Origin: Actinocorallia sp. API 0066
Lineage (GTDB): Bacteria > Actinomycetota > Actinomycetes > Streptosporangiales > Streptosporangiaceae
Direction: 5' to 3'
DNA: 64,000 bases
Assembly (NCBI RefSeq): GCF_020991275.1
Contig: NZ_JAJLQY010000002.1
Location: 620,001-684,000 of the forward strand
Position 1 is the first letter of the stretch; every line of letters starts with the position of its first letter. A program made the position numbers and the translations under genes. Of the stretch, positions 5,316 through 33,064 are shown piece by piece. Below the pieces are notes generated by a model. The model was not told where the DNA came from and searched no databases. It saw only the letters and a list, made by a program, of their open reading frames with translations.

Positions 5316-6083
5316 TTAGGTGGGTGGTATTAGGTCGCTTTGGCTTAGGGTGTAGGTCAGGGGGGGATAGGTGAAGGTTGTTTCGGTGTTTTCGCGGCGG
5401 CGGAGGGTGTAGAGTTCTTGGCTCTGGTTGTTGTTGGCGAGGGTGAGGGGGGTGCCTTGGGGGAGGTGGGGGTGTTTGTTGTGGAACTGGATTAGGGTTT
5501 TTGAGGTTCGGAAGGTGAGGCCTAGCCATTGGTTGTTGGTCTGGACGGGTGGGGATAGGATGATCTTGTGTCGGAGTCTTTGGTTTGACTTGATGGAGAA
5601 TATGATGACGCTGTTGTGGGTTAGGGGGACAGTGAACTGCTCTCCGGTGGGTTCCTTGGGTTCGAAGATTAGTTTTCTTGGTGGGGATGCTTCGGGGTGT
5701 GAGTAGCAGGAGAAGACGGCGATGAACGAATCGTCGGCCAGATCCAGGGCCTGGTCGGAATGGCTGCCCATGGTTCGGTAAGTGTCGGTGTAGTTCTCGA
5801 TTAGGGCGTTGTTGAAACTGGCGGGGAGTCCGGCGTGTGTTTGGATTTGTTGTGCCAGGCGTTCGTGTATCGGGCGGAAACGCTGGGTCGGGTTGTTGTA
5901 CCGGGTGGTGGTGCGGACTAGGGGCACGTTGCCGGTCTCGTCGATTCGGGTGAGTACCGCGCCTCGGCGGCCTTTTCCTACGTCTTCTAGATGGGCCGAC
6001 GTGGATAGTTCTGCGAAGAGATCCTCGTTGGTCGGCAGTGCGTAGGAGAGGATCTCGTCCCGGAGGTTAGGCACGGGGGGCAA
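5316..6083 (-). CDS. AlkB-like 2-oxoglutarate/Fe(II) dioxygenase
   Basis: 255 residues. The C-terminal half has a double-stranded beta-helix signature: H108-x-D110 (SHSD), distal H172 (RLRHKI) and the 2OG-binding R192 (GLTFRTSKT), spaced as in AlkB-fold oxygenases. The ATG at 6083 lies inside the end of the preceding gene (17-bp overlap), so the two are translationally coupled. It is homologous to that gene in the catalytic core. Base composition is distinctly lower in GC than neighbours, with CTA/ATA codons late in the gene, suggesting separate origin. As last gene of the leftward tailoring operon it probably hydroxylates or desaturates the alkaloid; nucleic-acid repair is the alternative for an AlkB fold. 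Confidence 0.7.
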   Translation of the reverse strand: MPPVPNLRDEILSYALPTNEDLFAELSTSAHLEDVGKGRRGAVLTRIDETGNVPLVRTTTRYNNPTQRFRPIHERLAQQIQTHAGLPASFNNALIENYTDTYRTMGSHSDQALDLADDSFIAVFSCYSHPEASPPRKLIFEPKEPTGEQFTVPLTHNSVIIFSIKSNQRLRHKIILSPPVQTNNQWLGLTFRTSKTLIQFHNKHPHLPQGTPLTLANNNQSQELYTLRRRENTETTFTYPPLTYTLSQSDLIPPT

Positions 6084-7326
6084 GGTAGTCGCCCTCGTTC
6101 ATGCTGAAGAGGAACTCCTCGCCGTAGTCGATGAACGACGAGTTCCGGTTCTCCTCGGCGTACAGCGCGCGTAGCCGGTCCATTCCCGCCTGTGTGGGCG
6201 GTGCGAGTTCCACCAGATCGCCGGCCGTGTTGAGGAACGTGCGGCCGTTGCGGTGGACGGCTTCCGCCTTTGAACAGCGCACGACGTATCCCAGGCGGAC
6301 GGGGAGTGACTCGGCGGCCAGGGTCGAGGGCCGGATCTCGTGGGTGTACAGGCGGTTGGTGGACAGCGGCATGAAGAACACGGAGCCGGGATAGAGGGTC
6401 AGGGTGAACTGCGCGGGGAGCCCATTGTGTTCTCCGGCCGGGTCCTTGAGGCGGAAGCGGAGGCTGGTCAGTCCGCTGGTGCCCTGAATTCCGTGGTCGA
6501 AGGTGTCTTCGGCCATGGGCCGCAGCCTGTCGAGTCCTTCGTAGAAGGTGCAGAACGCCATGATGCCGTTGGCGGGCATGTCCTTGGTCTTGTCGGCGTG
6601 AGACGAGATCTTGGCTTTGGACTGCTTGCGTTCCGCCGTGGCCGGCGTGTTGTGGTAGATCTGCGCGAGGACGTGGTTCAGCGGCGCCTGGTCCCGGAAG
6701 ACGGCGGCGGCCTCCTGGTTGAGGGCGTCGACGATGGACGTGTCGGTCGCGCGGAAGCCCTCGGTCGGGCCCGAGAGATTGGTGGAGCACCGGAGCAGCC
6801 GGAAACGCAGGTCGTCGCCGTCCCGCGTGACGGGCGTCAGATAGATTCCGCTGCGATGCGCGGTTCCGGGTTTGGTGGACTCGGTGAGCGACTGGAACTC
6901 GTGCTCCTCGCTGATCCGTTTGAAGTACCCGTCGTCGAGGTCGAAGAAGCGGCGGTAGTACACGCCGAGGCCGTGCACGCGGACGGGAACCCTGCCGAGA
7001 TCGACGAGAATCCACGGGTCGTCCGCGCGATGGCCGTGGGAAAGCTCCCGGACGACGAACACCCGCGCGGCCGCCGACAGATGGCCGCCGCTGATTCTGG
7101 AGATGTCGCCGCACAGGTAGACGTTCTTGTGGGCGAGGTCGAGTGAACCGGACGCGAGGTCCTCGGGCGTGACGACGGTCCCGAAGAAGTCCCTGACCGC
7201 GTCGTCGTCGTGCGACGTCGAAGGCGCGACCAGGATGTTGCGCGAGTCCTCGACCCAAGCCTCTGTGATGTCCATCGAATCGCGCCCGTCACTCGTACTC
7301 TCGGATACGCGAACGTTACCAGACAC
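6067..7326 (-). CDS. 2-oxoglutarate/Fe(II) dioxygenase, paralogue of the downstream AlkB-like protein
   Basis: 419 residues from GTG 7326, six bases after the carbamoyltransferase stop; ATG 7275 (codon 18) is an equally plausible start. The C-terminal half carries H243-x-D245 (SSHADK), H329 (YTHEI) and R350 (YVVRCSK), aligning motif for motif with the next gene's oxygenase (GSVFFMPLSTNRLYTHEI versus NSVIIFSIKSNQRLRHKI). The N-terminal ~220 residues are an extra region I do not recognise. Predicted to catalyse an O2- and 2OG-dependent oxidation of the cluster product. Confidence 0.65.
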   Translation of the reverse strand: MSGNVRVSESTSDGRDSMDITEAWVEDSRNILVAPSTSHDDDAVRDFFGTVVTPEDLASGSLDLAHKNVYLCGDISRISGGHLSAAARVFVVRELSHGHRADDPWILVDLGRVPVRVHGLGVYYRRFFDLDDGYFKRISEEHEFQSLTESTKPGTAHRSGIYLTPVTRDGDDLRFRLLRCSTNLSGPTEGFRATDTSIVDALNQEAAAVFRDQAPLNHVLAQIYHNTPATAERKQSKAKISSHADKTKDMPANGIMAFCTFYEGLDRLRPMAEDTFDHGIQGTSGLTSLRFRLKDPAGEHNGLPAQFTLTLYPGSVFFMPLSTNRLYTHEIRPSTLAAESLPVRLGYVVRCSKAEAVHRNGRTFLNTAGDLVELAPPTQAGMDRLRALYAEENRNSSFIDYGEEFLFSMNEGDYLAPRA

Positions 7327-7332
7327 GCATGT

Positions 7333-9333
7333 TTATTTGACGTGGGGGCGCAGGGCGATGAGGCGGGCTTGCCACAGCCTGAGGAGTTCGGCCCTGAGGT
7401 CGTCGGTCAGTTCGGCTTCGCGGGCGGAGAGGGGGACGGATTCGTCCACCCGCTGGAGAAGGTTGTACATCTCGGGGGAGATCGCTGTTCTCGGGCCGTC
7501 CACATAATCCAGGTGGATCTCGTGGGTCGCGGAGTCCGCGGGCGCTCCCGGGGTCCGGTGTTCGGTGAGGCGGGCCGTCGGGGGGAAATGGATGGTCAGG
7601 TGGTCGATTCCGGGGGGCGTGGAGGTGCGGTGGATGAGGAAGTCCTCGATGACGACGTAGTCCAGGTCGGTGGTGAGGTAACAGGTGAGGATGTCGTCGA
7701 CGGTCTGGACGATGGGTTCGGCGTTGTTGTTGAAGGAGGTGTTCAGGAGGACGGGCGTGCCGGTCAGGGCCCCGAAGGCGGAGATCAGTCGGTGGTATCT
7801 GCTGCTGGTTTCCTCGTCCACTACCTGGAGGCGGGCGGTGCCGTCGACGTGGGTGACGGCGCCCAGTTCCGCTCGCCGTTCCTCGCGGACGGGGAGGACG
7901 AAGGACATGAACGAGTAGTCCGCGGTCGTGTCGGGGAACGCGAAGTAGGTGGGGGCGGCGTCGGCGGTGACGGCCGGGGCGAACGGGCGGTAGGACTCGC
8001 GGTTCTTGATCATCTTGTTGATTCGCGTCTGGTTGCCCGGGGGGCGCGGGTCGGCCAGGATGCTGCGGTTGCCGAGCGCGCGGGGCCCGAACTCGGAGCG
8101 GCCCTGCGCCCAGCCCAGGACGTGTCCGTCGGCCAGGAGCCGGGCGGCGCGCGTGACGATGTCGTCGACGCGTTCGACGCGGACGCAGGGGCCCCAGGCG
8201 CTGATCCGCCGCTCGATCTCGGTGGGCGAGCCGAGTCCGGGGCCGAAGTCGGCGCGGCGCAGGCGACGCCGGGGGAGGGGTGCTCCGGTCAGCCGCCGCT
8301 CGGCGAACAGCGCGGCGCCCTCGGCCGCTCCGGCGTCGTGGGAGGCGGGGTGGACGTACACCTCGTCGAAGAGTCCGGAGCGCAGAATGCGGCCGTTGAG
8401 GCTTGAGTTGTGGGCGACACCGCCGCTGAGGACGGCGTCGCGGACGCCCGTCGCGCTGACCCAGTGCCGCAGCACGTGCAGGACGATGTTCTCCAGCGTC
8501 TCCTGGAGCCCCGCCGCCAGGTCCATGTGGTCCTGGGTGAACGGCTGTCCGCCGCGCCTGGGCGGGACGCCCCTGGCGAGGAACGCCGGGCCCAGGACGT
8601 TCTGGCCGGGGCCGCCGGGCGCGAGGTCGAAGTCCCCGTCGGGACGCAGCGTGTACAGCGACTCGAAGACCTCACGGAAAGTCTCGGCGCGGCCGTACGG
8701 GGCGAGCCCCATGACCTTGTACTCGTCGCCGAACCCGTAGCCGAGCTGCATCGTGCCGTACAGGTACAGGTAGCCGAGCGACTTGGAGAAGGGATAGTCG
8801 GCGAGGCGCTTCAGTTCGCCGTCCTTGCCGAAGTAGACGCTGATGCATTCTTCCTCGCCCTGGCCGTCCACGACGAAGACGAGCGCTTCGTTCATTCCGG
8901 AGCGGGCATAGGCGGACGTCCCGTGTGTGGTGTGGTGCGGTGCGAAGTGCAGTTCGTCGGCGCGGAGTCCGGTGCCGTACTGTTCCTCGAACCATCCGCT
9001 GATCAGTTCCCGCGCGTAACGCGTCGGTGTCCGCCGGTGTTGCAGGTAGAGGTGGTTGAGTGAGTCGTCCACGAACTTCTCGGTGAAGTAGTAGCCGACC
9101 GCGTCGATCTCCCGGACCGAACGTCCGGCGAGTTCCAGGCAGGCGCGAATGGCGTGCGCCGGGAACTTCGTCGTCTTCTTGATGCGGTTGAACCGCTCCT
9201 CCTCCGCCGCGGCCAGGAGGACGCCGTCCTCGACCAGGCAGGCGGCGGCGTCATGGAAGTCGCCCCAGTGGAGCTGCGGGACGAGGTCGCGGTCCGCGGG
9301 GGAGAAGTTGCCGCTGAGGCCGAGTGTCAGCAT
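7333..9333 (-). CDS. NodU/TobZ-family O-carbamoyltransferase
   Basis: 666 residues from ATG 9333, a start set by homology to NodU (MLTLGLSGNF) and by a 7-bp overlap with the upstream methyltransferase. The N-terminal Kae1/ASKHA-like domain includes HDAAACLVEDG, AAAEEERFNRIKKT, VVDGQGE and GGVAHNSSLNG; the C-terminal region has GRSEFGPRALGNRSILADPR and NTSFNNNAEPIV. The family transfers carbamoyl from carbamoyl phosphate via carbamoyl-adenylate to a hydroxyl group of a natural product (tobramycin, novobiocin, Nod factor). The acceptor here is inferred to be a polyketide-derived hydroxyl. Full length for the family; no key motif missing. Confidence 0.9.
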   Translation of the reverse strand: MLTLGLSGNFSPADRDLVPQLHWGDFHDAAACLVEDGVLLAAAEEERFNRIKKTTKFPAHAIRACLELAGRSVREIDAVGYYFTEKFVDDSLNHLYLQHRRTPTRYARELISGWFEEQYGTGLRADELHFAPHHTTHGTSAYARSGMNEALVFVVDGQGEEECISVYFGKDGELKRLADYPFSKSLGYLYLYGTMQLGYGFGDEYKVMGLAPYGRAETFREVFESLYTLRPDGDFDLAPGGPGQNVLGPAFLARGVPPRRGGQPFTQDHMDLAAGLQETLENIVLHVLRHWVSATGVRDAVLSGGVAHNSSLNGRILRSGLFDEVYVHPASHDAGAAEGAALFAERRLTGAPLPRRRLRRADFGPGLGSPTEIERRISAWGPCVRVERVDDIVTRAARLLADGHVLGWAQGRSEFGPRALGNRSILADPRPPGNQTRINKMIKNRESYRPFAPAVTADAAPTYFAFPDTTADYSFMSFVLPVREERRAELGAVTHVDGTARLQVVDEETSSRYHRLISAFGALTGTPVLLNTSFNNNAEPIVQTVDDILTCYLTTDLDYVVIEDFLIHRTSTPPGIDHLTIHFPPTARLTEHRTPGAPADSATHEIHLDYVDGPRTAISPEMYNLLQRVDESVPLSAREAELTDDLRAELLRLWQARLIALRPHVK

Positions 9334-10349
9334 GGCGTCGCCTTTCCGATCGTCTCGCGGGGCCGGTCGAGGGTGCGCACGCGGCGGCGGTGCTCGGGGC
9401 TGAGCCGGTCGTAGGCGCCCGGCGCCCAGGCCAGCAGGAGGAGGCCGGTGGGCCTGGTCACCAGCTCGGCGGCCCGCCAGCGCGGTTCCAGGGGCAGTTC
9501 CCGGTACAGCTCGGCGACGGTGCCGTCGGTGGTGTGGTCGCCGATGTCGAACACGGGGAGGCCGTCGACGCCGTCGATCTCGAAGGACGTGAGCGCGCGG
9601 TCGGGCACCGACATCCCGGCGAGCTGCACGTGCCGCCACCCGCCCTGACGCAGCAGGTCGAGCATCTCCGCCAGCCGGTACTCGCGTACGTACGGGGTCA
9701 GGAGGGCGTCGGCGAGGATGGAGTCGTAGGCGGCGGGGGAGATGTCGCCGAAGTCGTGCCGTTCGTCGATGTACCAGTCCTCGTTCAGCGACGGGCAGAC
9801 GCGCTTGGCGAGGTCGAGGCGCCGGTCCGGGGGCAGGTCGCGGCCCAGGGTGAGGACGAGTTCACGCTGGAGGCTCTCGTTCATGGTGCCGATGCTGTTG
9901 TACAGCCACAGGATCAGCAGTCCGGTGTCCGCGAGGGCCGAGCGAAGGTTGGCCAGGGCCGGGAGCGGGTCGGGGATGTGGTGGAGGACGCCGCAGCACC
10001 AGATGAGGTCGTACGGGCCGTCGAGGGGTGCCGTGCCGAGGTCGCCCTGCCGGACCGTGGCGTTCGTGACGCCCGTCTCGGCGAGGTAGTGGCGGGCCAG
10101 GTCGAGCGCGCCGGGGGCGAGGTCGATCCCGGTGACGTGCGCGTCGGGGAACTCTCCGGCCAGGCCGAGGAGCCGGTTCCCGGTGCCGCAGCCCGCGTCG
10201 AGGACGCGCCATCCCGACGGGTCGAGCCCGTGGAATCGGATGAGGCCCCCGATGGCCTCCATTCCGCTCGACGGATGCGCGGCGTCCGGGAGCGGAAAGG
10301 GAAATCGTGTGTAGTGCTCGGCCACCTCGGATGAGACATCGTGCAGCAT
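9327..10349 (-). CDS. SAM-dependent methyltransferase (class I)
   Basis: 340 residues from ATG 10349, preceded by GGGGAGGGG at good spacing; the frame stays open further upstream without support. Class I fold with SAM motif VLDAGCGTGNRLLGLA, acidic VTGIDLAPGAL, and WCCGVLHHIPDP as motif IV. The C-terminal ~140 residues form an extra substrate-binding or regulatory region. First gene of the leftward operon (methyltransferase, carbamoyltransferase, two oxygenases) with overlapping stop/start to the carbamoyltransferase. Target atom (O, N or C) cannot be told from sequence. Confidence 0.75.
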   Translation of the reverse strand: MLHDVSSEVAEHYTRFPFPLPDAAHPSSGMEAIGGLIRFHGLDPSGWRVLDAGCGTGNRLLGLAGEFPDAHVTGIDLAPGALDLARHYLAETGVTNATVRQGDLGTAPLDGPYDLIWCCGVLHHIPDPLPALANLRSALADTGLLILWLYNSIGTMNESLQRELVLTLGRDLPPDRRLDLAKRVCPSLNEDWYIDERHDFGDISPAAYDSILADALLTPYVREYRLAEMLDLLRQGGWRHVQLAGMSVPDRALTSFEIDGVDGLPVFDIGDHTTDGTVAELYRELPLEPRWRAAELVTRPTGLLLLAWAPGAYDRLSPEHRRRVRTLDRPRETIGKATPC

Positions 10350-10438
10350 TTCCGGAATCCCCTCCCCGTCGCCGCGCTCGGCGGTCTCCGACAGTAGGCC
10401 GCCGGTCGGTACATCACGGCGGCGTGTTCGGCCTTTGG

Positions 10439-10456
10439 CGCGTTCTTGGGAACGCG
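10439..10456. promoter_or_regulatory. Inverted repeat in divergent promoter region of the biosynthetic cluster
   Basis: CGCGTTC-TTGG-GAACGCG, a perfect 7-bp inverted repeat, sits in the 230-bp gap between the leftward tailoring operon (10349) and rightward core operon (10580). Its position suits an operator controlling both; no cluster regulator is encoded nearby, so the binding protein is unknown. Confidence 0.4.
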
Positions 10457-10579
10457 GGAAAGCTCTTTTGGCAGACGCCGCGAGGAACATCGACGCGCCG
10501 AACCCGGCGTCCCCGTGACTCGGCGTGTCCCTTCCTACGCTGGTCGTGATCATGGAAGTCGGCGCGGGGAGGGGTTCTG

Positions 10580-11425
10580 ATGCGCGGTGGGACGGTGGTC
10601 GAGCGGTTCGGGCTCGCGGGGCGGAGGGCGCTCGTCACGGGCGCGTCGCGGGGCATCGGCCGGGCCGTCGCGGTGGCGTTCGCGGAGGCGGGGGCCGACG
10701 TGGCGCTCGCCGCGCGGGACGTGGAGGCGCTCAAGCGGGTGGCCGAAGAGGTCGAGGGCCACGGTCGGAGCGCCGTCGTGATCGACTGCGACCTCGCCGA
10801 CTCCGCGCGGGCCGAGGCGATGGTGAAGGCCGCGGTGGACGGCCTCGGCGGGCTCGACGTGCTGGTCAACAACGCGGGGGTGATGCGCTGCGTGGGCCCG
10901 TTCACCGACCTGGACGAGGCCGACTGGGCCGCGACCCTGGGCGTGAACGTCGGCGGCGCGGTCGCGACGTGCCGGGCCGCCGCGCCGTTTCTGGCGGCGG
11001 GCGGCGCGGGCTCGGTCGTCAACGTCGCGTCCATCATGGGCCTGGGCGGCATGCCGTTCGCGGCGAGTTACGCGGTCAGCAAGGCGGCGCTGATCTCCCT
11101 CTCGCAGGCACTGGCGATGGAGTGGGCGGCGCACGGCGTGCGGGTCAACGCGCTGGCCCCGGGGTGGACGCACACCGCCAAGACCGACGCCGTCAGCGGC
11201 GACCCGGCGGCCTTCGACGTCGCGGTGGCGTCCGTCCCGGCCGGACGCTGGGCGGACCCGGACGAGATCGCCGCGGCCGCGCTCTTCCTGGCCTCCGACG
11301 CCGCCTCCTACGTCACCGGGCAGTGCCTCGCGGTGGACGGCGGCTGGAGCGTCGATCTCGCCGGTCCCGGACTGCGCGGGATGCTCGCCGCGCTGGGCGG
11401 CCGGACGCCGGTCGGCGACGGCTGA
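10580..11425 (+). CDS. Short-chain dehydrogenase/reductase (cluster SDR)
   Basis: 281 residues, ATG 10580 behind GGGGAGGGG. Classical SDR: TGASRGIGRAV cofactor loop, NNAGVM, catalytic Ser in NVASIMG and Y-x-x-x-K in SYAVSK, C-terminal YVTGQCLAVDGGWS. First gene of the rightward operon; by context likely oxidises or reduces a hydroxyl/ketone of the alkaloid. Substrate unproven; generic FabG-like activity cannot be excluded. Confidence 0.85.
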   Translation: MRGGTVVERFGLAGRRALVTGASRGIGRAVAVAFAEAGADVALAARDVEALKRVAEEVEGHGRSAVVIDCDLADSARAEAMVKAAVDGLGGLDVLVNNAGVMRCVGPFTDLDEADWAATLGVNVGGAVATCRAAAPFLAAGGAGSVVNVASIMGLGGMPFAASYAVSKAALISLSQALAMEWAAHGVRVNALAPGWTHTAKTDAVSGDPAAFDVAVASVPAGRWADPDEIAAAALFLASDAASYVTGQCLAVDGGWSVDLAGPGLRGMLAALGGRTPVGDG

Positions 11426-11539
11426 CGCGCGGCGGGGCGGACCGGAAAGGGAATCGGAAGCGCCCCATGCCGTCGTTTGACCGGCCAGGTGATCTTGGTG
11501 TGGTGCAGTCGAGTCCGGCACACGGACGAGGAGGCAGGC

Positions 11540-13111
11540 ATGACCCATCAGGATGTGCTCGACGACAGGCCGGAGGCCCCGGCGGGCCCGGACGGCACGC
11601 CGGTCCTCGAGGTGACGGGCAGGCTGACGACCGCGGACCTGGAGACCGCCGCGCGCGGCCCGGTGCGGGTGGCGATGGCCGACGACACCGCCGAGCGCGT
11701 CGCCGCAGGGCACGCCTACATGCTGTCGTGCGTCGCGGAGGGGCGTGACATCTACGGGGTGACGACGGGGTTCGGGAACCTCGTCGGTTTCGCCGGGCGC
11801 GCGACGGCGCACGAGCAGAGTGAGGGTTTCCTGAACTTCCTGACCGCCGGGCACGGCCGGGACCTGCCGCCGGAGGTCATGCGGGCGACGCTGCTGGCCC
11901 GCGTGTGGTCGCTGGCCAAGGGCCGCTCGGCGGTGTCCCCGGCCGCGCTGCGGACGCTGGTCGCGGTCCTGGAGACCTCGTTCGCCCCAGCCGTGCCTCG
12001 GATGGGTTCGGTCGGCGCGAGCGGCGACCTCATCCCGCTCGCCTACGCGGTGCGCGCGATGCAGGGCCAGGGCCACGCCTACGTGGACGGTGTGCGGGTG
12101 CCCGCCGCCGAGGCGCTCGACCGCTGCGGGGTCGGCCCGCTGCACCTGGCGGGGCGTGACGCCGTCGCGCTGGTCAACGGCACCTCGGTGACGTCGGCGG
12201 CGGCGGGCCTGGCGCTGGCGAGCCTCGCCCGCTCGGTGAACACCGCGGTCACCCTCACCGCGCTGCTCGCCGACCTGCTCGGCAGCGATCCGGGTTTCGC
12301 CGCCGCGCCGACCCTCGCCGCGTTCGGCCACCGGCACGGCGAGGACGTCGCCGCCGCGCTGCGCGCCCTGCTGGACGGGACGGCGCCGACCGGTGCCCGG
12401 CCGCTCCAGGAGCCGTACAGCATCCGGTGCAGCCCGCAGCTCATCGGCGCGGCGGCGGGCGCGCTCGACTACGCGGCGACGGTCGTCGGCGACGACCTCA
12501 ACGGGATCAACGACAATCCGCTGTTCTTCGCCGAGGACCGGGTGGTCACGCACGGCGGCAACTTCTTCAGCCAGCCGGTGGCGTTCGCGGCGGACTCGAT
12601 GTCGACGGTCGCCGCGCAGCTCGCCAACCTCGCCGAACGCCAGCTCGACCTGCTCACCGACACGCACCGCAACAGCGGCCTGCCGCCGATGCTGGCGACG
12701 GAGCCGGGCAGGCAGCACGGGGTGGTCGGCATGCAGATCGCGGCGACCGCGACGGTGGCGGCCATGCGCCGCGCCGCGACGCCGATCTCGGGCCAGAGCC
12801 TGCCGACGAACGGCCACAACCAGGACGTGGTGCCGCTGGGGACCCAGGCCGCCCTCACCGCGCTGGAGCAGGCGGAGCATCTGCGCTGGGTGCAGGGCGC
12901 GCTGGGCGTGGCGCTCCGGCAGGCCGGACACCTCAGCGCGCGGGGGGCCACCGCGCCCGCGTGCGCGGCGGTGCTGGGCGAGCTGGGTGGGGCGGTCGCG
13001 CCGATCGATCCGGACCGTCCCCTCGACGTCGACGTCCAGCGGGCGGCCGCGCTGCTCGACCGGCTCGCGGCGCGGCGGGCGCCCTGGCGCGGCGCACCAG
13101 CCGGTGCTTGA
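11540..13111 (+). CDS. MIO-type aromatic amino acid ammonia-lyase/aminomutase, probably phenylalanine-specific
   Basis: 523 residues from ATG 11540. The MIO prosthetic group forms from A160-S161-G162 (GSVGASGDLIPLAY); the inner loop has the catalytic tyrosine Y72 in YGVTTGFG. The selectivity position reads F100-L101 (LNFLTAG), the Phe-Leu pair of phenylalanine lyases rather than His-Leu (tyrosine) or Ser-His (histidine). Other family blocks: LVNGTSVT, PYSIRCSPQ, NDNPLFF. Predicted to give trans-cinnamate, or beta-phenylalanine if an aminomutase; sequence alone does not separate these. In this operon it most likely supplies the starter acid to the CoA-ligase domain of the third PKS rather than degrading histidine, since no hut genes are present. 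Confidence 0.85.
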   Translation: MTHQDVLDDRPEAPAGPDGTPVLEVTGRLTTADLETAARGPVRVAMADDTAERVAAGHAYMLSCVAEGRDIYGVTTGFGNLVGFAGRATAHEQSEGFLNFLTAGHGRDLPPEVMRATLLARVWSLAKGRSAVSPAALRTLVAVLETSFAPAVPRMGSVGASGDLIPLAYAVRAMQGQGHAYVDGVRVPAAEALDRCGVGPLHLAGRDAVALVNGTSVTSAAAGLALASLARSVNTAVTLTALLADLLGSDPGFAAAPTLAAFGHRHGEDVAAALRALLDGTAPTGARPLQEPYSIRCSPQLIGAAAGALDYAATVVGDDLNGINDNPLFFAEDRVVTHGGNFFSQPVAFAADSMSTVAAQLANLAERQLDLLTDTHRNSGLPPMLATEPGRQHGVVGMQIAATATVAAMRRAATPISGQSLPTNGHNQDVVPLGTQAALTALEQAEHLRWVQGALGVALRQAGHLSARGATAPACAAVLGELGGAVAPIDPDRPLDVDVQRAAALLDRLAARRAPWRGAPAGA

Positions 13112-13212: not shown

Positions 13213-13761
13213 ATGAACGACACCCAGCGCGAGCGGTTCAGCCGCCTCTTCGACCACCTGGACGCCGACGGCTCCGGCGCCATCGAGTGGCAGGACTTCG
13301 AGATCCTGGCGGGGCAGATCCTCAGCCGCACCGAGACCGAGCCGACCTCGCCCAGGGCCCGCGCCCTGCACGACGCCTACCGGACCGGCTGGGAGGCCCT
13401 CACCAGCACCGCCGACCTCGACGGGGACGGGCGGGTGACCCGCGAGGAGTTCCTGTCCCGGATCGACGACCCCGACGAGGGCCCGCGCTCGCTCCGCGCC
13501 GCCATCCACGCGGTGGGCGAGGCGGAGTTCCAGGCGATCGACACCGACGGGGACGGCAGGGCCACGCTCCCGGAGCTCCTGCGCGTGCTGGACGCCAAGG
13601 GCGGCTCGTCCAAGCAGGAGGCCGTCGCCGCCTTCGAGGCGCTGGACACCGACGGCGACGGCTCGATCTCGCTGGACGAGTACCGCACCGCCTGGGAGGT
13701 CTACTACCGGGCCGACGACCGGGACCAGGCCCACCGCGAACTCAACGCGATCTTCGCCTGA
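13213..13761 (+). CDS. Four-EF-hand calcium-binding protein (calerythrin-like)
   Basis: 182 residues with four EF-hand loops: DADGSGAIEWQDF, DLDGDGRVTREEF, DTDGDGRATLPEL and DTDGDGSISLDEY, each with the expected Asp/Asp/Asp-Gly/Glu ligand pattern except the third, which ends in the weaker position 12. No signal peptide, so cytoplasmic. The layout matches actinobacterial calerythrin/sarcoplasmic calcium-binding proteins. It lies between the ammonia-lyase and a methyltransferase gene in the same direction; whether it serves the pathway or is a passenger is unknown. Confidence 0.85.
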   Translation: MNDTQRERFSRLFDHLDADGSGAIEWQDFEILAGQILSRTETEPTSPRARALHDAYRTGWEALTSTADLDGDGRVTREEFLSRIDDPDEGPRSLRAAIHAVGEAEFQAIDTDGDGRATLPELLRVLDAKGGSSKQEAVAAFEALDTDGDGSISLDEYRTAWEVYYRADDRDQAHRELNAIFA

Positions 13762-13842: not shown

Positions 13843-14865
13843 ATGACCACCGCAGTTCAGCCCGCCCGCCCGGACTCGTTCGTGCACGGACCTTCGGCGG
13901 GGCACTTCTCGTCCTACATCGTCGCGGTCGCCCTCTCGGCCGCCTGCGAACTCGGGATCCTCGACGTCCTCGCCGACGAGGGCGCCTACCGCCTGGACCG
14001 GGACGACCGGGAACTCGACCCGGTGGTGGTGGAACGCCTGCTGAACGGGCTCGTCTGGGGCGACGTCGTGCGGGTCGCGGACGGGGTGGCGCGGCCGGGC
14101 CCCGGGTTCGCCGACGCGTACGCCGCGCGCGGCTACTTCTACTGGATGGTGCGCGGCTGCGGCGCGCTGTTCAGCGAGGCGCCCAGGGTGGCCCGGCGCG
14201 ACCAGCGCGACGGCGCCTTCTACCGCCGCGACATGCGCGCGGTCGCGGTCGGCTCGCACCTGATCGCCGACACCGCCGTGGAGGGCCTGTACGACGCGCT
14301 GCTGGCCGAGCGGGAGTTCGGCGCCCTCGCCGACCTGGGGTGCGGTTCCGGCCGACGGCTGACGCGGGTCGCCGGGGGCCGTCCCGGCGTCCGGGGGATC
14401 GGCGTGGACATCGCGCCCGCCGCCGTCAAGCTCGCCGCCCGGTCCATCGAGGACGCGGGGCTCGCCGACCGGATCACGGTCTGTGAGGCCGACGTCCTGG
14501 ACCTGCCCGCGATCCCCGGCGGCGAGCGCGTCGACGTGATCACCTGCTCCTTCATGGGGCACGACTTCTGGCCCTACGACCGGTGCGTCCGGACGCTGCG
14601 CGGGCTGCGCCGGGCGTTCCCCAACGCGGGCCGCTTCCTGCTGTGCGACGTGGCGCGCGCCACCCGGCGGCCCGGCCCGGACACCCCCCTCTTCACGCTC
14701 GGGTTCGAGCTGGTCCACGCCCTGATGGGTGTCTACCTGCCGACCCGCGACGAGTGGTTCGCCGCGTTCGCCGCGTCCGGCTGGCGCTGCGTCGCCGCCC
14801 ACGACGTGACGGCCCCGCCCGGCGGCGTCATGTTCGACCTCGAACCCGTCGCGGCGCATGGCTGA
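13843..14865 (+). CDS. SAM-dependent methyltransferase (O-methyltransferase-like architecture)
   Basis: 340 residues from ATG 13843, chosen over ATG 13813 because of the GAGGAG site. The N-terminal half is helical with a winged-helix-like region (AACELGILDVL), as in dimeric small-molecule methyltransferases; the Rossmann core has LADLGCGSGRRLTRVA, GIGVDIAPAAVKLA and the unusual CSFMGHDFWPYD in place of the usual motif IV. The gene overlaps the imine-reductase start by 8 bp. Predicted to methylate a pathway intermediate, possibly at N or O; target not determined. Confidence 0.75.
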   Translation: MTTAVQPARPDSFVHGPSAGHFSSYIVAVALSAACELGILDVLADEGAYRLDRDDRELDPVVVERLLNGLVWGDVVRVADGVARPGPGFADAYAARGYFYWMVRGCGALFSEAPRVARRDQRDGAFYRRDMRAVAVGSHLIADTAVEGLYDALLAEREFGALADLGCGSGRRLTRVAGGRPGVRGIGVDIAPAAVKLAARSIEDAGLADRITVCEADVLDLPAIPGGERVDVITCSFMGHDFWPYDRCVRTLRGLRRAFPNAGRFLLCDVARATRRPGPDTPLFTLGFELVHALMGVYLPTRDEWFAAFAASGWRCVAAHDVTAPPGGVMFDLEPVAAHG

Positions 14866-19078: not shown

Positions 19079-19099
19079 GTAAGGACACGAGGCACCGAC

Positions 19100-25000: not shown

Positions 25001-25462
25001 GCGCCCGCCGGACTGTCCGGGACGGTGCACATGGTGCCGGTGGACTACGCCGCCGCCGCGATCGTGGCGCTGTCCCGCAGGCCGGAGGCCGTCGGCCGGA
25101 CCTTCCACCTGTACGGCCGGGACGGCGTCGAGTACCGCCATCTTGTGGAGCGCCTCAGGGCGGCGGGCTACCGGCTGCCCGAGCGGGACCCGGCGTCCTG
25201 GCGGGCCGCTGTGCTGGCCGACCCCGGCAACGCGGTACGCCCCCTGCTCGACGTCTTCCTGCGCGTCCTGGACGGCGGCATAGGCACCCCGCCGGTCGAC
25301 GTGACGGAGACCGAGGCGGCGCTCGCGGGCACCGGCATCGGGTGCACGCCCCTCGACGACGGGCTGTTCGCGAAGTCGGTGGACTTCTTCGTCGCGTCGG
25401 GCTACCTGCCCGCCGCGCCGCGCCCCGCCGACCGGGCGCGGGAGCGCGCCGCCGCCCTGTGA
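19100..25462 (+). CDS. Type I PKS, terminal module KS-AT-DH(degenerate)-KR-ACP-thioester reductase
   Basis: 2120 residues. N-terminal docking coiled coil (residues 1-32); KS with C202/H337/H377; AT with S646 (GHSLGE), same CASH tetrapeptide as the preceding PKS; a DH-like region (~900-1170) whose catalytic-His motif reads [13 protein letters not shown], lacking the histidine although D1090 (LLDAVLHHP) remains; KR with TGATGALG, S1492 and Y1505 and an HDD triplet suggesting B-type stereochemistry; ACP S1672; C-terminal reductase (~1745-2120) with TGATGFLG and Y1911/K1915 (YRQSKW). The reductase releases the chain as an aldehyde. No C-terminal docking, as expected for a last module. The expected beta product is a hydroxyl because DH looks dead. 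Confidence 0.92.
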
Positions 25463-25503: not shown

Positions 25504-28500
25504 ATGCGTGTGGATCTCAGCCCGGTGACCGCGGTGCTCGGGCAGGCGGGCCGGTCCTGCGCCGGTCCCGCGCTGCGGTACGAAGGCGCCGAGATCGGCT
25601 ACCCGGCCCTCGCGGACCGGGCGGGGCGCCTCGCCGGGGTGCTCGCCGCCGGAGGCGCGGCCGGGGGCTGCCGCGTCGCCTACCTCGGGCGCAACAGCCC
25701 GACCCTCCTCACGACCCACCTGGCCTGCGCGTGGCTCGGCGCGGTCTTTGTCCCGGTGAACCCCCTGCTGCGGCCGGACGAGCTCGGGGAGGTCCTCACC
25801 GACTGCGACCCGCACACCCTCGTGGTGGAGCCCGAGCACGTCGCCGAGGTGGAGGCGGTCCACGCGTCGGGGCACCGGCGACTGCTGCTCGTCGACGACG
25901 ACCCCATGGCGGGCCCGGTGGATTCCGGCGTCCCCTCGGAGTTTTCCTGGACGCCGCTGCGCGCCGCGCTGGCCGAGGCCGACCGCCCGGAACCCGTCGC
26001 GTGCAAGGCCGACGACCTGGCCGTCCTGCTGTACACCTCCGGCACGACCGGGCGGGCCAAGGGCGTCCGGCTCACCCACGGGAACCTCTGGTGGAACGGC
26101 GTGAACGTCGGCTGGGCCACCGGCACGACCGGCCGCGAGGTCAACCTCGCCGTCACCCCGCTGTTCCACATCGGCGCGCTGAACTCCTTCACTCTGCGCG
26201 CCCTCGCCCACGGCGGGACGACCGTGTTGCGCCGGGCGTTCGACCCCGACGTGATCCTCGCGGACCTGGTCGAGCACCGGGTCGGCACGCTCCTCGGGGT
26301 GCCGTCGGTGTACGCGGCGGTGGCCAGGACGCCGGGTTTCGCCGACGCCGACCTGTCCGGGCTGCGCGTCGCGGTGGTGGCGGGCGCGCCGGTGCCGCCC
26401 GCGCTGATCGAGGAGTACGCGGCGCGCGGCGTCCTGCTCCGGCAGGCGTGGGGGCTCACCGAGACCGCGCCGTTCGCGACGCTCCTCCCGGCCGACCAGC
26501 GCAAGTCCGGATCGGCGGGCCTCCCCATGCCGTTCACCCGGATCCGGCTGGTCGACCCGGAGACCCGCGCGCCGGTCACCGAGCCGGGGGCGCGCGGCGA
26601 GGTCTGTGTGCGCGGCCCGAACGTCACCGCTGGGTACTGGCGGGCCCCCGACGCCGACGCGGCCGCGTTCGCCGACGGCTGGTTCCACAGCGGGGACATC
26701 GGCGAACTCGACGCCGACGGCCACCTGTACCTCGTCGACCGCCTGAAGAACATGGTCATCACCGGCGGCGAGAACGTCTACCCGGCCGAGGTCGAGCGGG
26801 CCCTGGCCGGGTGCCCCGGCATCGTGGAGGCGGCGGTCGCGGGGGTTCCGCACGAGACGCGGGGTGAGGCCGTCGTCGTCGTCGCGGTCCCGGCCGAAGG
26901 CGCGCGGCCCACGCTCGACGGCGTCCGCGCCCATCTCGCCCCCCGGCTCGCCGCCTACAAGCTGCCGGTGCGCCTGCACCTGGTCGGCGCGCTGCCGCGC
27001 AACGCCACGGGCAAGATCGACCTCGCGGCGCTGCGGGCCCTGCTGCCCGCCGGGCCACCGCCGTCCCCCGACGTCGCGGGACGACGGCTCGAAGACCTCG
27101 TGGAGGAGGCGACCGCCGCCGCGCTGGGGCACACGCCGCCGGGGCTGCGCGCCGGTGCCGCGTTCGCCGACCTCGGTGTGGACTCGCTCGCCGCCGTCGA
27201 CCTCCGCGACCGGCTGGCCGAGGCGACGGGGATCGCGCTGCCCGCGTCCCTCGTCTTCGACCACCCCACTCCCGCCGCCGTCACCGAGCACCTCCGGTCG
27301 CGGCTCCGGGGTCGGTCCGACCGCCGTGATCCGGCCGTCGGCGCGTTCGCCGAGCCGATCGCGATCGTGGGGATCGGCGTGCGGCTGCCGGGCGGGGTGA
27401 GCGGCCCGCAGGCGCTGTGGGAGTTGCTGGCGCGCGGCGGCGACGCGATCTCGGAGTTCCCGGCGGACCGGGGCTGGGACCTGGCGGCCCTGCGCGACCC
27501 CGGCTCGCCCGGCGGCTCGGCCACCCGGCACGGCGGCTTCCTGCGCGAAGCCGCGCTGTTCGACGCCGAGTTCTTCCAGATCGCGCCGCGCGAGGCGCTG
27601 GCGATGGACCCGCAGCAGCGCCTGCTGCTGGAGACCTCGTGGGAGGCGCTGGAGCACGCGGGGATCGACCCGGTCTCGCTGCGCGGGCTCGACGTGGGCG
27701 TCTTCCTCGGCCTGTTCGCCAACGGGTACACCGAACGCCTCCCGGCCCGCGTGGACCTGGACGGCTACCGCACGACCGGCGGGCTTACGAGCATGGCGGC
27801 CGGGCGGCTCGCTTACGTGCTCGGGCTATGCGGCCCGGCCTTGGTCGTCGACACCGCGTGCTCGTCGTCGCTGGTCGGGCTGCACCTCGCCGTCCGGGCG
27901 CTGCGGGCGGGCGAGTGCACGATGGCGCTGGCCGGGGGCGCCACGGTGATGGCGGGCCCCGAGGGCTTTGTGGAGTTCTCGCGGCAACGCGGGCTTGCCC
28001 CGGACGGACGGTGCAAGTCCTTCGCCGACGCGGCCGACGGCACCGCCTGGGGGGAGGGCGTCGGCGTGCTGGTCCTGGAACGCCTGGCGGACGCCCGCCG
28101 GGCCGGGCACGACGTGCTGGCGCTCGTCCGGGGCTCGGCCGTCAACCAGGACGGTGCGTCGAACGGGCTCACCGCCCCGAACGGCACCGCCCAGCAGCGG
28201 GTGATCCGCCGCGCGCTGGCCGACGCGGGCCTGTCGCCCGCCGACGTCGACGCGGTCGAGGCGCACGGCACCGGCACCGTCCTCGGCGACCCGATCGAGG
28301 CCGAAGCGCTGCTCGCCTGCTACGGGCGGGAGCGGAGTGAGCCGCTGTTCCTCGGGTCGCTGAAGTCGAACGTCGGCCACACCCAGGCGGCGGCAGGGGT
28401 GGCTGGGGTGGCGAAGATGGCGCTTGCGCTGCGCCACGGTGTCCTGCCCCGCACGCTGCACGTCGACCGCCCGTCCGGGAAGGTCGACTGGTCGTCGGGC

Positions 28501-31458
28501 TCGGTCGCCCTGCTGACCGAGCGGGTCGCCTGGCCTGAGCGCGGGCGGCCCCGGCGCGCCGCCGTGTCGTCCTTCGGGATCAGCGGCACCAACGCGCACG
28601 TGATCCTCGAACAGGCACCGGCGGAGACGGCGCCGCCGGAACCGGAGGAGGCGGACGGGCCGGTGCCGGTGGTCGTGTCGGCCCGGTCGGCCCGTGCCCT
28701 CGCCGAGCAGGCCGGGCGGTTCGCGGCGGCCCTGGACGCGGGCGTCGGGCTCGCCGACCTCGCCAGATCCGCGACGGCGAGAACGGTGTGGGAACACCGC
28801 GCGGTGGTCGTGGCGGCAGACCGCGACCAGGCCCTCGACGGCCTGCGCGCGCTCGCCGAGGGCCGGGACGCCGCGTCCGTGGTCGGCCCGGCGGAAGGCG
28901 GGCCCGGCCGTACCGTCTTTGTCTTCGCGGATCGCGCCGCGCCGTGGCCGTCCGACCCGTCGTGGTCGGCCGAACCGGCGTTCGCCGCCCGCCTGGCCGA
29001 ATGCCGCGCCGCCCTGGCCCCCCACCTGCCCGGTTCCGGGTGGGACGGCCCGGAGAACGCCGGGCCGAGGGACTTCGCCGTGATGCTCTCCCTCGCCGCG
29101 CTCTGGCGTTCCCACGGCGTGCGGCCGGACGCCGTCATGGGCACCGGAACGGGGGAGATCGCGGCGGCCTGCGTCTCCGGCGCGCTCTCCCTGGCCGACG
29201 CCGCCCGCCTCGTCGCCGCCCGGTCGCCGGTGCCGCACCCCGCACCCGGTGACGGCGAGCCGGTGGGGGAGGCGGTTGCGGTGCGCGATCCCGAGGTGCC
29301 CTGGTACCGCGCGACGGGCGACCGGGTGCGCGGCGGCGGACACCGGTTCGGCGCTCCGGCGGCACTCGGGGACGCCGCCCGGACGCTGGCCGCGCGCGGA
29401 TTCGGCGTGTTCGTCGAGATCGGCACGGGCCCGGAGGCGTCGGCCGTGCGGGAGTCCCTTGCCGGGACGGAAGCCGCCGGGTGTGGGGGAGGGGACGGCG
29501 GAGCCTTCGTCAGCGCGCTGGCGGAGGCGTTCGTCCTGGGCGCGAAGGCCGACTTCACGCCGACGCTGCGCGGCAGGGGCCGGACGGTGCCGCTGCCGAC
29601 CTACCCCTTCCAGCGGAGTCGGTACTGGTGGAACTCCCAGGGTTCCGCCGGACCTCCGGCCGAGGGCGACGCCCCGGCGCTGTTCCACGTGGCCTGGACG
29701 CGCGTCGGAACGCCCGGCGCCGGGCCCCGGACGGCCACCGTGACGCGGGCGCAAGATCTCGCGGCGGTCGCCGCTGGGGCAGTCCCCGTGCTGCTGCCGG
29801 AAGACGGCGGCGCGTCGCCGGACCCGACTTCGTCGGGAGCGCCTCCGGTTCTGGCGCGGGCGGCGGTCAACCGGGTGCTCGACGTGCTCAGGGCGTTCCT
29901 GGCGGAGCCCGGGGGCCGGGGACGGCGGCTCGTGGTGGCCACTCGGGGCGCGGTGGCCGTCGCCGACGGCGAGTCCGTGGACCCCGTCGGGTCTGCGGTT
30001 TGGGGGGCGGTGCGGGCGGCGCAGCGGGAGCACCCCGGCCGGTTCGCACTTGTTGATCTTGACGAGTACACCGAGGCGTCCCTCGCCGTCGCGGCGTCGG
30101 CCGAAGAACCAGAGACAGCCGTGCGCAGCGGTGCGGTCTGGGCGCCCCGGCTCCGCCGGGCCGGGCTCGCGGAGGCGCCGGGACGTCTCGACCCCGGCGG
30201 CACGGTCCTCATCACCGGGGGCACCGGCGCGTTGGGCGGGCTGGTGGCCCGGCACGTCGTGGTGGCGCACGGGGTGCGTAGCGTGCTGCTGGCGTCCCGC
30301 CGGGGCGAGGCGGCGCCGGGCGCGGCGGAGCTGCGGGCGGAGCTGCGGGCGCTCGGCGCGCGGGTGGACCTCGCCGCCTGCGACGTCGGCGTCCGGGACC
30401 AGGCGCGGGCGCTGCTCGACCGCGTCCCGCACGACGCGCCGCTGACCGCGGTGATCCACACGGCGGGTGTCCTGGACGACGCTGCCGTTGGCGCGATGGA
30501 CGCGGACCGCGTCGACCGGGTCTTCCGGGCGAAGGCCGACGCCGCGATGTGGCTGGACGAACTCACCCGAGGTCTGCGCCTCGACGCCTTTGTCCTCTTC
30601 TCCTCGGTCGCGGGCGTGCTGGGCACCGCGGGGCAGGCCAACTACGCGGCGGCGAACGCCTTCCTCGACGGGATCGCGCACGCCCGCCGCGCGCGGGGCC
30701 TGCCCGCGACGTCCCTGGCCTGGGGTCTCTGGGACGTCGAGGGCGGCATGGGCGGGCGGCTCGGGAAGGCCGAGCTGGATCGCCTCTCCCGCACGGGCCT
30801 GCGCCCGGTCGCCGGGGCGGACTGCCTGCGGCTGCTGGACTCCGCGCTCGGCCAGGGCGCGCGTGATCACGCGGTGCTCCTGCCGATCGCGCTCGACCTG
30901 CCCGTCCTGCGCGGGCAGGCCGACGCGGGCCGGTCGCAGGCGGTGTTCGGGGAGCTGGTCCCGCCGCGTCGGCCGAAGTCCGTGCCGACCGGTGCCGCGC
31001 CCGTCCGGCCCGGCGACCTCCTCGACCTGGTGCGCGCGGAGGCGACCGCGGTCCTCGGCCGGGACGGAACCGAGCCGATCGGGGTCGAACAGTCGTTCGA
31101 GAGTGCCGGGATCGACTCGATCACCGCGCTGGAACTCCAGGAACGCCTCAGCGAGGCGACCGGTGTGGATCTTGTCGAGACGCTGGTGTTCGACCATCCG
31201 ACACCGGCCGCCGTCGCCGCGCACCTGCGGGCCCGGCTGGCCGCCCGCACCCGGCTCGCCGCGCTCGGCGCGCTGGCGGACGCGCTCGCCGAGCCGCCCG
31301 CCGACGAGGCGGAACGCCGCCTGGTCGCCGACCGCCTGCACGCGTTCCTCGACCGTCTGGGCGTGCCCCGCACCCCCGCGCCGGAGACCGCCGGACCCGC
31401 CGACCTGGACGCGGCGAGCGACGACGAACTTTTTGCGTTCATCGAGCAGAGCCTGTGA
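25504..31458 (+). CDS. Type I PKS, loading and first module: CoA ligase-ACP-KS-AT(degenerate)-KR-ACP
   Basis: 1984 residues from ATG 25504 (GGAGG five bases upstream). Acyl-CoA/aryl-CoA ligase domain (~1-510) with [26 protein letters not shown] and NATGKI; ACP S561; KS C786/H921/H959; a shortened AT (~1137-1375) in which GHSxG is replaced by GTGTG (T1214, G1215), so no acyl-enzyme can form; KR with TGGTGALG, S1701, Y1714 and LDD (B-type); ACP S1872; C-terminal docking segment ([13 protein letters not shown]). No N-terminal docking helix, so it starts the line. The ligase probably activates cinnamate or a related acid from the ammonia-lyase; the extender must be loaded in trans. Confidence 0.9.
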
Positions 31459-31483
31459 ACCGCAGCGCGAAGGAGCCACCACC

Positions 31484-33064
31484 ATGTCATCCGCCGTCAT
31501 CACGGCCGGGACCGACCCGGCCCGAACCGACCTCGCCGAACCGCACATGGCCGAGACCCTGGCCGTGCTCGGCCTGGCCGTCGAATACGTCCGGGCTGAG
31601 GGCGACACCCTCTACTACCGCGACGGGCGGGGCGAGGAGAAAGCGGTGCTCGACCTCGTCGGGGCCTTCGGCGCGACGATCCTCGGCCACCACGACCCCG
31701 ACGTCGTCGCTTACGCCAGGTCCCTGCTGGACGCCCGGCTGCCGGTGTACGCCCAGTTCTCGCTCCACCCCTACGCCGACGCCGTGGCACGGCGACTCAA
31801 CCGCGTCCTGGAACGTGAGTTCGGGGAGGCCGAACCCTACTTCGCGGTCTTCGCCAACAGCGGCGCGGAGGCCAACGAGGTCGCCCTCAAACACGCCGAA
31901 CTCGACAGGGTGACGCGGCTCGCCGAACTGCGCGAGACGCTGCGGGCGAACCGGGCGAAGGCCAGGACGGCGCTGGCGGAGGGCGGCGCGGTCCTGGCGG
32001 ACGACGCCCGCGCGGCGCTCGGCGTCGACGGCGCGGAAGCCCTCCTGGACGCCGCCGCGCGGGCCGAGACCGAGCGGCTGGCCGCGCCTCCCGTCCTGCT
32101 GGCCCTGGAGGGCTCCTTCCACGGCAAGCTCGTCGGGAGCGTGCAACTGACCCACAACCCGGCCTTCCGGCTGCCCTTCGGCTCGCTCGCCGCGCGGTGC
32201 CTGTTCGTTCCGGCGGACCGTCCCGACGAGCTCGCACGGATCGTGGAGGGCGAGCGCAGGACGGTGGTCGACTTCGCCGTCGACGCCGGAGTCGTCCGGG
32301 TCGTCGAGCGCGAGGTGCCGGTTTTCTGCGCGTTCGTCCTGGAACCCGTCCAGGGGGAGGCGGGCATCAGGGCGCTCAGCGAGGAGACCGCGCGGACCGT
32401 CCAGCGCGTCTGCGCGTCGGTCGGCTGCCCGATCGTCGTCGACGAGGTCCAGTCCGGCATGGGCAGGTGCGGGTCCTTCTTCGCCAGCGCGGCGATCGGC
32501 CTCCGGGGCGACTACTACACCCTCGCCAAGAGCCTCGGCGGCGGTGTGGCCAAGGCCGCGGTGACCCTTGTGCGCGCCTCCCGCTACCGCCGCGACTTCG
32601 ACCTGATCCACAGCTCGACCTACGCCAAGGACGGGTTCTCCACCCGGATCGCGGGAAAGGTCATCGACCTCCTTGAGGCGGACGGCGGCGCCGCCTACCG
32701 CCTCGCGGCCGCGCGGGGCGCGGCGCTGATGACGGAACTCCGCGCCGTCCAGGCCGCCTACCCGGACGTCGTCAGGGACGTCCGGGGCAGAGGGCTGATG
32801 GCCGGGCTCGAGTTCCACGACCAGTCGGCGTCGGCCGCGCCGGAGATCCGCGCGCGCGCCGACATGTTCGGCTACTTCGCCTCCGGGTACCTTCTGCGCG
32901 CCCACGCGATCCGCGTCTTCCCGACGGCCAGCGCCGTGCACACCCTGCGCTTTGAGCCGTCGATCCGGCTCACCGACGCCGACATCGCCCGCACCGGCGC
33001 CGCGCTGCGCGACCTGTGCGGCGTCCTGCGCGCCCAGGACGCGGCGCGGCTGCTCGACCGGTAG
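31484..33064 (+). CDS. PLP-dependent class III aminotransferase (PKS-associated)
   Basis: 526 residues, ATG 31484 behind AAGGAG. Fold type I class III signature: FANSGAEANEVALKHAE, GSFHGK, D320 in VVDEVQSGMGR and Schiff-base lysine K349 in LAKSLGGG. A ~60-residue helical insertion (about residues 150-205) distinguishes it from ornithine/GABA aminotransferases and is seen in aminotransferases attached to PKS clusters. Last gene of the rightward operon, 25 bp after the first-module PKS. Expected to convert the aldehyde released by the terminal reductase to a primary amine, which then cyclises. Confidence 0.88.
   Translation: MSSAVITAGTDPARTDLAEPHMAETLAVLGLAVEYVRAEGDTLYYRDGRGEEKAVLDLVGAFGATILGHHDPDVVAYARSLLDARLPVYAQFSLHPYADAVARRLNRVLEREFGEAEPYFAVFANSGAEANEVALKHAELDRVTRLAELRETLRANRAKARTALAEGGAVLADDARAALGVDGAEALLDAAARAETERLAAPPVLLALEGSFHGKLVGSVQLTHNPAFRLPFGSLAARCLFVPADRPDELARIVEGERRTVVDFAVDAGVVRVVEREVPVFCAFVLEPVQGEAGIRALSEETARTVQRVCASVGCPIVVDEVQSGMGRCGSFFASAAIGLRGDYYTLAKSLGGGVAKAAVTLVRASRYRRDFDLIHSSTYAKDGFSTRIAGKVIDLLEADGGAAYRLAAARGAALMTELRAVQAAYPDVVRDVRGRGLMAGLEFHDQSASAAPEIRARADMFGYFASGYLLRAHAIRVFPTASAVHTLRFEPSIRLTDADIARTGAALRDLCGVLRAQDAARLLDR

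Follow-up and report, generated by a model that had tools for sequence, protein, structure and literature searches.

The 64,000-nucleotide window analyzed here comprises bases 620001-684000 of contig 12 of Actinocorallia sp. API 0066, a 7.0-Mb genome that we call G000. It carries a cluster of 12 genes between positions 7333 and 33821. Judging from the sequence, we give slightly better than an even chance to the interpretation that these genes encode an aryl-primed pathway to a polyketide piperidine alkaloid. The gene set, the domain states, their conservation and their homology can be read from the DNA; from these we infer the substrates, the module order, the cyclization, the tailoring sites and the product.

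In the proposed pathway, an aromatic amino acid lyase of the MIO type would convert phenylalanine to cinnamate, which the CoA-ligase domain of one polyketide synthase (PKS3) would load onto the first acyl carrier protein (ACP). The acyltransferase (AT) of module 1 (PKS3) is dead, so that the extender unit of this module would have to come in trans; the module 1 ketoreductase (KR) would leave a hydroxyl. Module 2 (PKS1) would add one unit and retain the ketone, and module 3 (PKS2), with a dead dehydratase (DH), would add another and reduce it to a hydroxyl. The terminal thioester reductase (TD) would release an aldehyde, an aminotransferase would convert it to an amine, and reaction of this amine with the C5 ketone would give a six-membered cyclic imine, reduced to a piperidine by an imine reductase (IRED). 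The predicted core is 2-(2-hydroxy-4-phenylbut-3-enyl)piperidin-4-ol, with the formula C15H21NO2 if every unit is malonyl; C2 and C4 could carry ethyl branches. One of the hydroxyls would be O-carbamoylated, and one or two methyl groups would be placed on O or N.

A more specific form of this proposal, which we hold tentatively and at somewhat less than an even chance, describes the product as a bacterial, polyketide-built counterpart of sedamine and lobeline: a phenylalanine-primed, possibly ethyl-branched, O-carbamoylated 4-hydroxypiperidine. Its module 1 extender would be borrowed, and its lyase would have evolved through a natural replacement of His by Phe in a tyrosine-type ancestor that carried His. 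An initial annotation of the locus had already outlined a route from an aryl starter to a piperidine. That logic is supported by synteny with a related genome, by the homology of the TD-aminotransferase-IRED trio, by the His-to-Phe change in the lyase and by the loss of the module 2 KR, but the 2-oxoglutarate (2OG) oxygenases that it included do not belong to the pathway, and it overlooked the dead module 1 AT and the CASH motif of the other two ATs.

A conserved unit of twelve genes

Genes were called from codon-position GC content and start context (the window has 72% GC), and the calls were then compared with Pfam, NCBIfam and the PDB. The comparison with actinomycete genomes that the initial annotation had proposed recovers the whole cluster in G014, a genome of the same genus, where 12 of the 12 genes have orthologs in identical order (Table 1). 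The genes outside both cluster ends are not alike in the two genomes. Since gene order is kept in G014 while the flanks differ, we delimit the unit to 7333-33821. The interval first annotated, 5316-33064, thus contained a real gene set but misjudged its extent, and it left out three conserved members, namely both short-chain dehydrogenase/reductase (SDR) genes and the gene for an EF-hand protein.

A search with the aminotransferase matched 9 of 345 genomes of the order at E 1e-60, the source genome included, and among these nine the remaining cluster genes were found only in G014. In 20-kb stretches of the other seven, no lyase, IRED, methyltransferase or carbamoyltransferase match exceeded 80 bits. 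Methyltransferase 2 (MT2), searched against 396 genomes sampled from the phylum, matched only its own genome at E 1e-40; G014 probably lies outside that sample.

Starter unit and assembly line

The MIO lyase of the initial annotation is present and retains its Ala-Ser-Gly triad (GASGD in the window and in G014). At the selectivity site, the lyases of the window and G014 carry Phe-Leu, whereas 10 of the 10 other relatives in a 12-row alignment carry His-Leu. These ten (nine places in genomes and one contig of a metagenome-assembled genome [MAG], 55-61% identical) do not include L001, a third MIO paralog of the source genome, which was missed by the motif filter. The second motif has Gln (NGHNQDVV), not Glu as in histidine ammonia-lyases (HALs). 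The best solved relatives are the chains 2o78 and 2o6y, one with His and the other with Phe at the selectivity site; judging by the aligned residue, we take 2o6y to be the Rhodobacter sphaeroides tyrosine ammonia-lyase (TAL) and 2o78 its H89F form. The His89Phe exchange is described as switching the Rhodobacter enzyme from tyrosine to phenylalanine (PMC9002059, PMC8773403). A literature search under the wording H89F found no paper. The window lyase shares the Phe of that switched form, but here the change is natural and lies within a biosynthetic cluster. In the alignment of PMC3992019, this site is Phe or His in phenylalanine ammonia-lyases (PALs) and His in TALs, and the legend gives Glu at the second site in HALs and Gln in the others. 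The selectivity site is nevertheless an imperfect predictor of substrate. The residues of the window enzyme suggest, though not conclusively, that it is a PAL, and its His-bearing relatives may be TALs or PALs. Among named genome contigs, MIO relatives occurred at one locus, a 4.2-kb MAG contig on which nothing else matched apart from, weakly, an SDR.

The source genome holds a second MIO lyase (L040; C33:56029-57480), 58% identical and with His at the selectivity site. It adjoins a ketosynthase-type gene and a CoA-ligase-like stretch detected by tblastn, and this locus is possibly another aryl-primed pathway.

The PKS loaded by a CoA ligase, also foreseen in the initial annotation, is PKS3. 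The nearest solved relative of its ligase domain is feruloyl-CoA synthetase (8weu/8wev, 344 bits), with weaker matches to 4-coumarate ligase (4CL; 199 bits) and a peptide synthetase (134 bits). The stretch PLFHIGALN, which we presume to be 4CL-like, lacks an acidic residue for an amine.

Because a loading domain occurs only in PKS3 and a release domain only in PKS2, we infer the module order PKS3-PKS1-PKS2. All three ketosynthase (KS) domains retain Cys-His-His, and the domain logic first assigned to the line is borne out: the KRs of PKS3 and PKS2 are intact, with their catalytic Tyr, PKS1 has no KR, and the PKS2 DH has lost its His (replaced by Arg in the window, within a three-residue gap in G014). 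PKS1 of G014 still contains a DH-KR stretch, in which the KR catalytic Tyr is replaced by His. In the window this stretch is gone, so that window residues 935 and 938 correspond to G014 residues 933 and 1597. As the KR has decayed in one genome and the DH-KR stretch has been deleted in the other, the module 2 ketone would be kept, in agreement with the earlier proposal.

Two features of the ATs had been overlooked. In module 1, GTGTGE (window) or GTGIGE (G014) stands where GHSxGE is expected, so that the catalytic Ser is gone, and about 75-80 residues including the second His motif are lost, alike in both genomes. The other feature concerns the extender unit. Crotonyl-CoA carboxylase/reductase, which is needed for ethylmalonyl-CoA, scores above its model cut-off in two places in G000 and in one in G014; below the cut-off, the model matches most control genomes and is uninformative. 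The intact ATs, those of modules 2 and 3, both carry the motif CASH (2 of 2), which is described as distinct from HAFH (malonyl) and YASH (methylmalonyl) and as consistent with ethylmalonyl (PMC5518548). Ethyl branches in the product are possible.

Release, amination and tailoring

The trio that would build the ring had been predicted and was found in full. The TD is C-terminal in PKS2 (NAD_binding_4, 212 bits), and its best solved relative is 8v1x (445 bits), for which a literature search by PDB code found no paper. The best solved relative of the class III aminotransferase is CrmG, the caerulomycin aminotransferase; caerulomycin is a bipyridine from a mixed line of PKS and nonribosomal peptide synthetase. 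The IRED exceeds the RedAm-like_C cut-off of 27 bits and matches an R-imine reductase (3zgy, 279 bits) and a reconstructed ancestral imine reductase (8jku, 300 bits).

All three enzymes have counterparts in a cluster carried by a plasmid of Streptomyces sp. NBC_00250 (NZ_CP108089), with identities of 59% for the TD, 59% for the aminotransferase and 50% for the IRED. This cluster contains genes for an imine reductase homolog, an acyl-CoA dehydrogenase, a flavin reductase, an aminotransferase, NTF2-like proteins and three PKSs, and in gene content it resembles the argimycin arp cluster. Argimycin biosynthesis requires the PKS and the aminotransferase (PMC5820336). A Streptomyces argillaceus deletion strain in which arpDHII had been restored gave a reduced product when fed nigrifactin, and ArpDHII is described as an imine reductase (PMC5820336, PMC5300972). 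In a plasmid cluster of Streptomyces sp. RerS4, which we took as cpk-like, the TD is 57% and the aminotransferase 55% identical, and no IRED match was found within the stretches fetched.

Across the nine aminotransferase-positive genomes, a TD match at E 1e-40 was present in all (9/9) and reached at least 57% identity in seven, including the window and G014; the five others in this group, out of seven, lie at 57-61%. The TD and the aminotransferase are 24-30 kb apart on one contig in G086, G106 and G223, and on different contigs of a split assembly in the remaining four. IRED matches occurred in eight of the nine, G336 having none. Two further thioester-reductase-type domains in the source genome (C40:292104-293231, 42% identical to the PKS2 TD, and C12:208579-209649, 40%; one stop read through in each) possibly mark more reductive-release lines.

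The carbamoyltransferase is real, but the label NodU type does not fit, as it reaches only 123.6 bits against an equivalog cut-off of 1000. It has both family domains and matches NovN (9s2t, 802 bits) and GdmN (7vyj, 786 bits), whose acceptors are an aminocoumarin and an ansamycin, respectively. Because these matches run along the full length, O-carbamoylation of one hydroxyl is likely. Both methyltransferases named initially are present; they could act on O or N, and the gene for methyltransferase 1 (MT1) overlaps that of the carbamoyltransferase, so that the two are likely cotranscribed. The EF-hand protein inside the operon, of the calcium-binding type, evolves fast and is the least conserved member, yet its position is kept.

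Alternative readings and adjoining features

Several observations weigh against the proposed pathway. The lyase falls below the NCBIfam PAL equivalog cut-off (205.9 bits against 519.15), and HALs are reported to carry Phe at the selectivity site too, and a true Streptomyces TAL Tyr (PMC8773403). Module 1 lacks an intact AT in either genome. With a dN/dS of 0.40, this dead AT exceeds the living ATs (0.24 and 0.26) but is level with the TD (0.40) and close to the module 3 KR (0.43). Since the last two are living domains, dN/dS alone does not mark the dead AT; the values were estimated by the simple Nei-Gojobori method from high-GC sequence, over stretches delimited by hand. Unlike the CASH ATs of the window, all pattern-matched ATs in the comparison loci are of the malonyl HAFH type (14/14 in L044, L046 and L047, of which L044 and L046 overlap, and 3/3 in L017, L020 and L021; L019 and L022, the other two of the eight loci compared, gave no pattern match). 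The IRED matches of G086, G106 and G223 lie away from the TD-aminotransferase region. Outside the window and G014, an IRED match lies near the TD only in G037 (47%), on another contig than its aminotransferase stretch, so that the IRED is not a constant partner of the other two. Finally, the scheme gives no role to either SDR or to the EF-hand protein, and no transporter or regulator was found among the 12 genes.

The dead AT raises the question of whether module 1 extends the chain at all. If it only passed the starter on, modules 2 and 3 alone would extend cinnamoyl, whose own carbonyl would become the C5 ketone, and the product would be 2-styryl-4-hydroxypiperidine (C13H17NO if malonyl). 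The loss of the catalytic Ser and of a large stretch in both genomes fits this, and the six-membered ring would still close with the shorter chain. Yet the module 1 KS keeps Cys-His-His and the KR its Tyr, and they are 89% and 85% identical between the genomes, against 66% for the AT; an idle KR should have decayed like that of module 2. We therefore prefer a module 1 fed in trans and regard the pass-through as unlikely, although it deserves some weight. A precedent for such supply is the AT-less loading module of thiotetronate synthesis, proposed to be served by a fatty-acid malonyl transferase (PMC5518548). Only marginally less credible, and likewise unlikely, is that the trio works as predicted but yields an open-chain or differently sized amine, because ring closure at C5 fails or because the IRED serves as a reductive aminase or reduces a different imine. 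The IRED family includes reductive aminases, as the name of one matched molecule indicates, the gene is not a constant neighbor of the TD and the aminotransferase elsewhere, and the two additional SDRs could alter oxidation states; against this stand the argimycin precedent, with the same trio, and the specific retention of the module 2 ketone.

Two further readings seem improbable. The carbamoyltransferase-methyltransferase pair on the minus strand might belong to a separate neighboring pathway, as its divergent orientation and the lower GC content of the carbamoyltransferase gene (68.6%, against 75% for 7333-33878) could suggest; however, both genes occupy the same place in G014 (78-79% identity), although the neighboring genes differ there. 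We consider it slightly less probable still that the MIO enzyme is an aminomutase providing a beta-phenylalanine starter, whose own nitrogen would close on the module 2 ketone to give a 2-aryl-4-hydroxypiperidine, also a six-membered ring, with a second amine at the aldehyde end. Lyases and aminomutases of the MIO type share a fold, and the solved relatives include tyrosine aminomutase and AdmH. The enzyme stays far under the cut-offs of the aminomutase models (264.9 against 800 and 266.2 against 501), a weak argument as the PAL, TAL-type and HAL models fail too. Also against this reading stand the loading ligase, which is nearest to feruloyl-CoA synthetase and whose PLFHIGALN stretch lacks an acidic residue for an amine, and the CoA-ligase-like match close to 8 of the 10 loci of lyase relatives.

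Two 2OG-oxygenase-like genes, oxyA and oxyB, precede the cluster and had been counted as pathway members. They overlap, their products are 23-26% alike, and their GC content is below that of the surroundings. The oxyB protein has no Pfam match at E 0.001, and its AlphaFold model (mean pLDDT of 41) was too poor and was set aside. A search with oxyB across 342 genomes of the order gave matches in 27, counting the source genome; G014 had none at E 1e-10. The two genes stand side by side in 14 of 14 loci from other genomes (15 loci were fetched). In none of these did MT1 or the carbamoyltransferase appear within about 1.5 kb, although the window has its carbamoyltransferase gene about 60 bases away. 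We rejected a tailoring role because the pair occurs without the cluster and oxyB is missing from G014. Judged by this distribution, 5316-7275 is a separate conserved gene pair that adjoins the 12-gene unit.

Farther downstream, positions 40941-49539 encode an uptake set of the iron-siderophore type (a binding protein, two FecCD permeases, an ATPase and a siderophore-interacting protein) and, after it, two ABC transporter genes that have membrane and ATPase domains. A lantibiotic dehydratase gene with N- and C-terminal domains (58625-61351, minus strand) adjoins a PCMT-like methyltransferase gene (62070-63152, plus strand), and the two likely mark a cluster for a ribosomally synthesized and posttranslationally modified peptide.

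Table 1. Genes and domains of the predicted alkaloid cluster and the adjoining gene pair (window positions; amino acid identity to the G014 ortholog)
Feature	Positions	Strand	G014 identity	Evidence
2OG-oxygenase-like gene (oxyA)	5316-6083	-		Pfam 35.7 bits, cut-off 31.2; GC 57%
2OG-oxygenase-like gene (oxyB)	6067-7275	-		HxD..H..R pattern by eye; GC 66%
O-carbamoyltransferase, GdmN/NovN type, 666 aa	7333-9333	-	78%	Full-length NovN/GdmN match
SAM methyltransferase 1 (MT1)	9327-10349	-	79%	Pfam Methyltransf_25
SDR oxidoreductase 1	10580-11425	+	86%	Pfam adh_short_C2
MIO aromatic amino acid lyase, predicted phenylalanine-specific	11540-13111	+	87%	Pfam Lyase_aromatic 405 bits; NCBIfam HAL, TAL-type and aminomutase models also under cut-off
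EF-hand protein	13213-13761	+	66%	Pfam EF-hand; dN/dS ~1.2
Methyltransferase 2 (MT2), O-methyltransferase-like	13843-14865	+	88%	Pfam; dimerization domain match under its cut-off
Imine reductase	14858-15745	+	83%	RedAm-like_C 143 bits
PKS1, module 2: docking-KS-AT-ACP	15773-19078	+	83% (first 936 aligned positions)	DH-KR loop deleted at ~nt 18578
PKS2, module 3 and release: docking-KS-AT-DH(dead)-KR-ACP-TD	19100-25462	+	81%	TD ~24350-25429
PKS3, loading and module 1: aryl CoA-ligase-ACP-KS-AT(dead)-KR-ACP	25510-31458	+	76%	Domain search
Dead acyltransferase of module 1	28897-29529	+	66%	GTGTGE for GHSxGE; second His motif lost
Class III aminotransferase (arp-like/cpk-like/CrmG lineage)	31484-33064	+	81%	CrmG 466 bits; 59% to arp-like cluster
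SDR oxidoreductase 2, convergent, last conserved gene	33084-33821	-	85%

Relation to known alkaloid pathways

The closest parallels are the argimycin P cluster (arp) of S. argillaceus and the arp-like cluster of NBC_00250, which share a type I PKS ending in a thioester reductase, a class III aminotransferase and an imine reductase. Argimycin biosynthesis passes through a piperideine to a piperidine, as the gene content predicts here. The differences lie in the starter and the tailoring. Argimycin loading is of the KSQ type with a malonyl-derived starter, whereas here a CoA ligase and an ACP load the line; the argimycin PKS has more modules, with ATs predicted to be malonyl specific, against three modules, CASH ATs and one dead AT in the window (PMC5300972). 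The structural genes listed for argimycin include two SnoaL-like cyclases but no ammonia-lyase, carbamoyltransferase or methyltransferase (PMC5300972). The window cluster has all three of the latter, and no SnoaL-type cyclase was detected among its 12 genes at E 0.001, a further point against the proposed route. The coelimycin P1 (cpk) and streptazone clusters likewise combine reductive release with transamination. Their products arise from polyene chains with later oxidations and are not known to have an aryl starter. The plant alkaloids sedamine and lobeline have a 2-(2-hydroxyarylalkyl)piperidine skeleton like that of the predicted product, but their ring comes from a lysine-derived piperideine, whereas here it would derive from polyketide carbons.

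A search of the open-access literature for the same gene combination (titles and abstract openings, apart from subscription journals, preprints and MIBiG) returned the argimycin papers and no aryl-primed alkaloid line. The cluster is, in our reading, a variant of the polyketide alkaloid systems with an aromatic starter rather than a categorically new system. It would join a known alkaloid-forming engine to that starter, and its product is most likely an undescribed carbamate-bearing piperidine. If this is correct, the polyketide alkaloids compared here would gain an aromatic starter, and carbamoylated piperidines would have a compact three-module line. The pair of genomes also captures the remodeling of a PKS, with a KR that has lost its catalytic Tyr in G014 and been excised in the window, and an AT that is dead while the rest of its module is intact.

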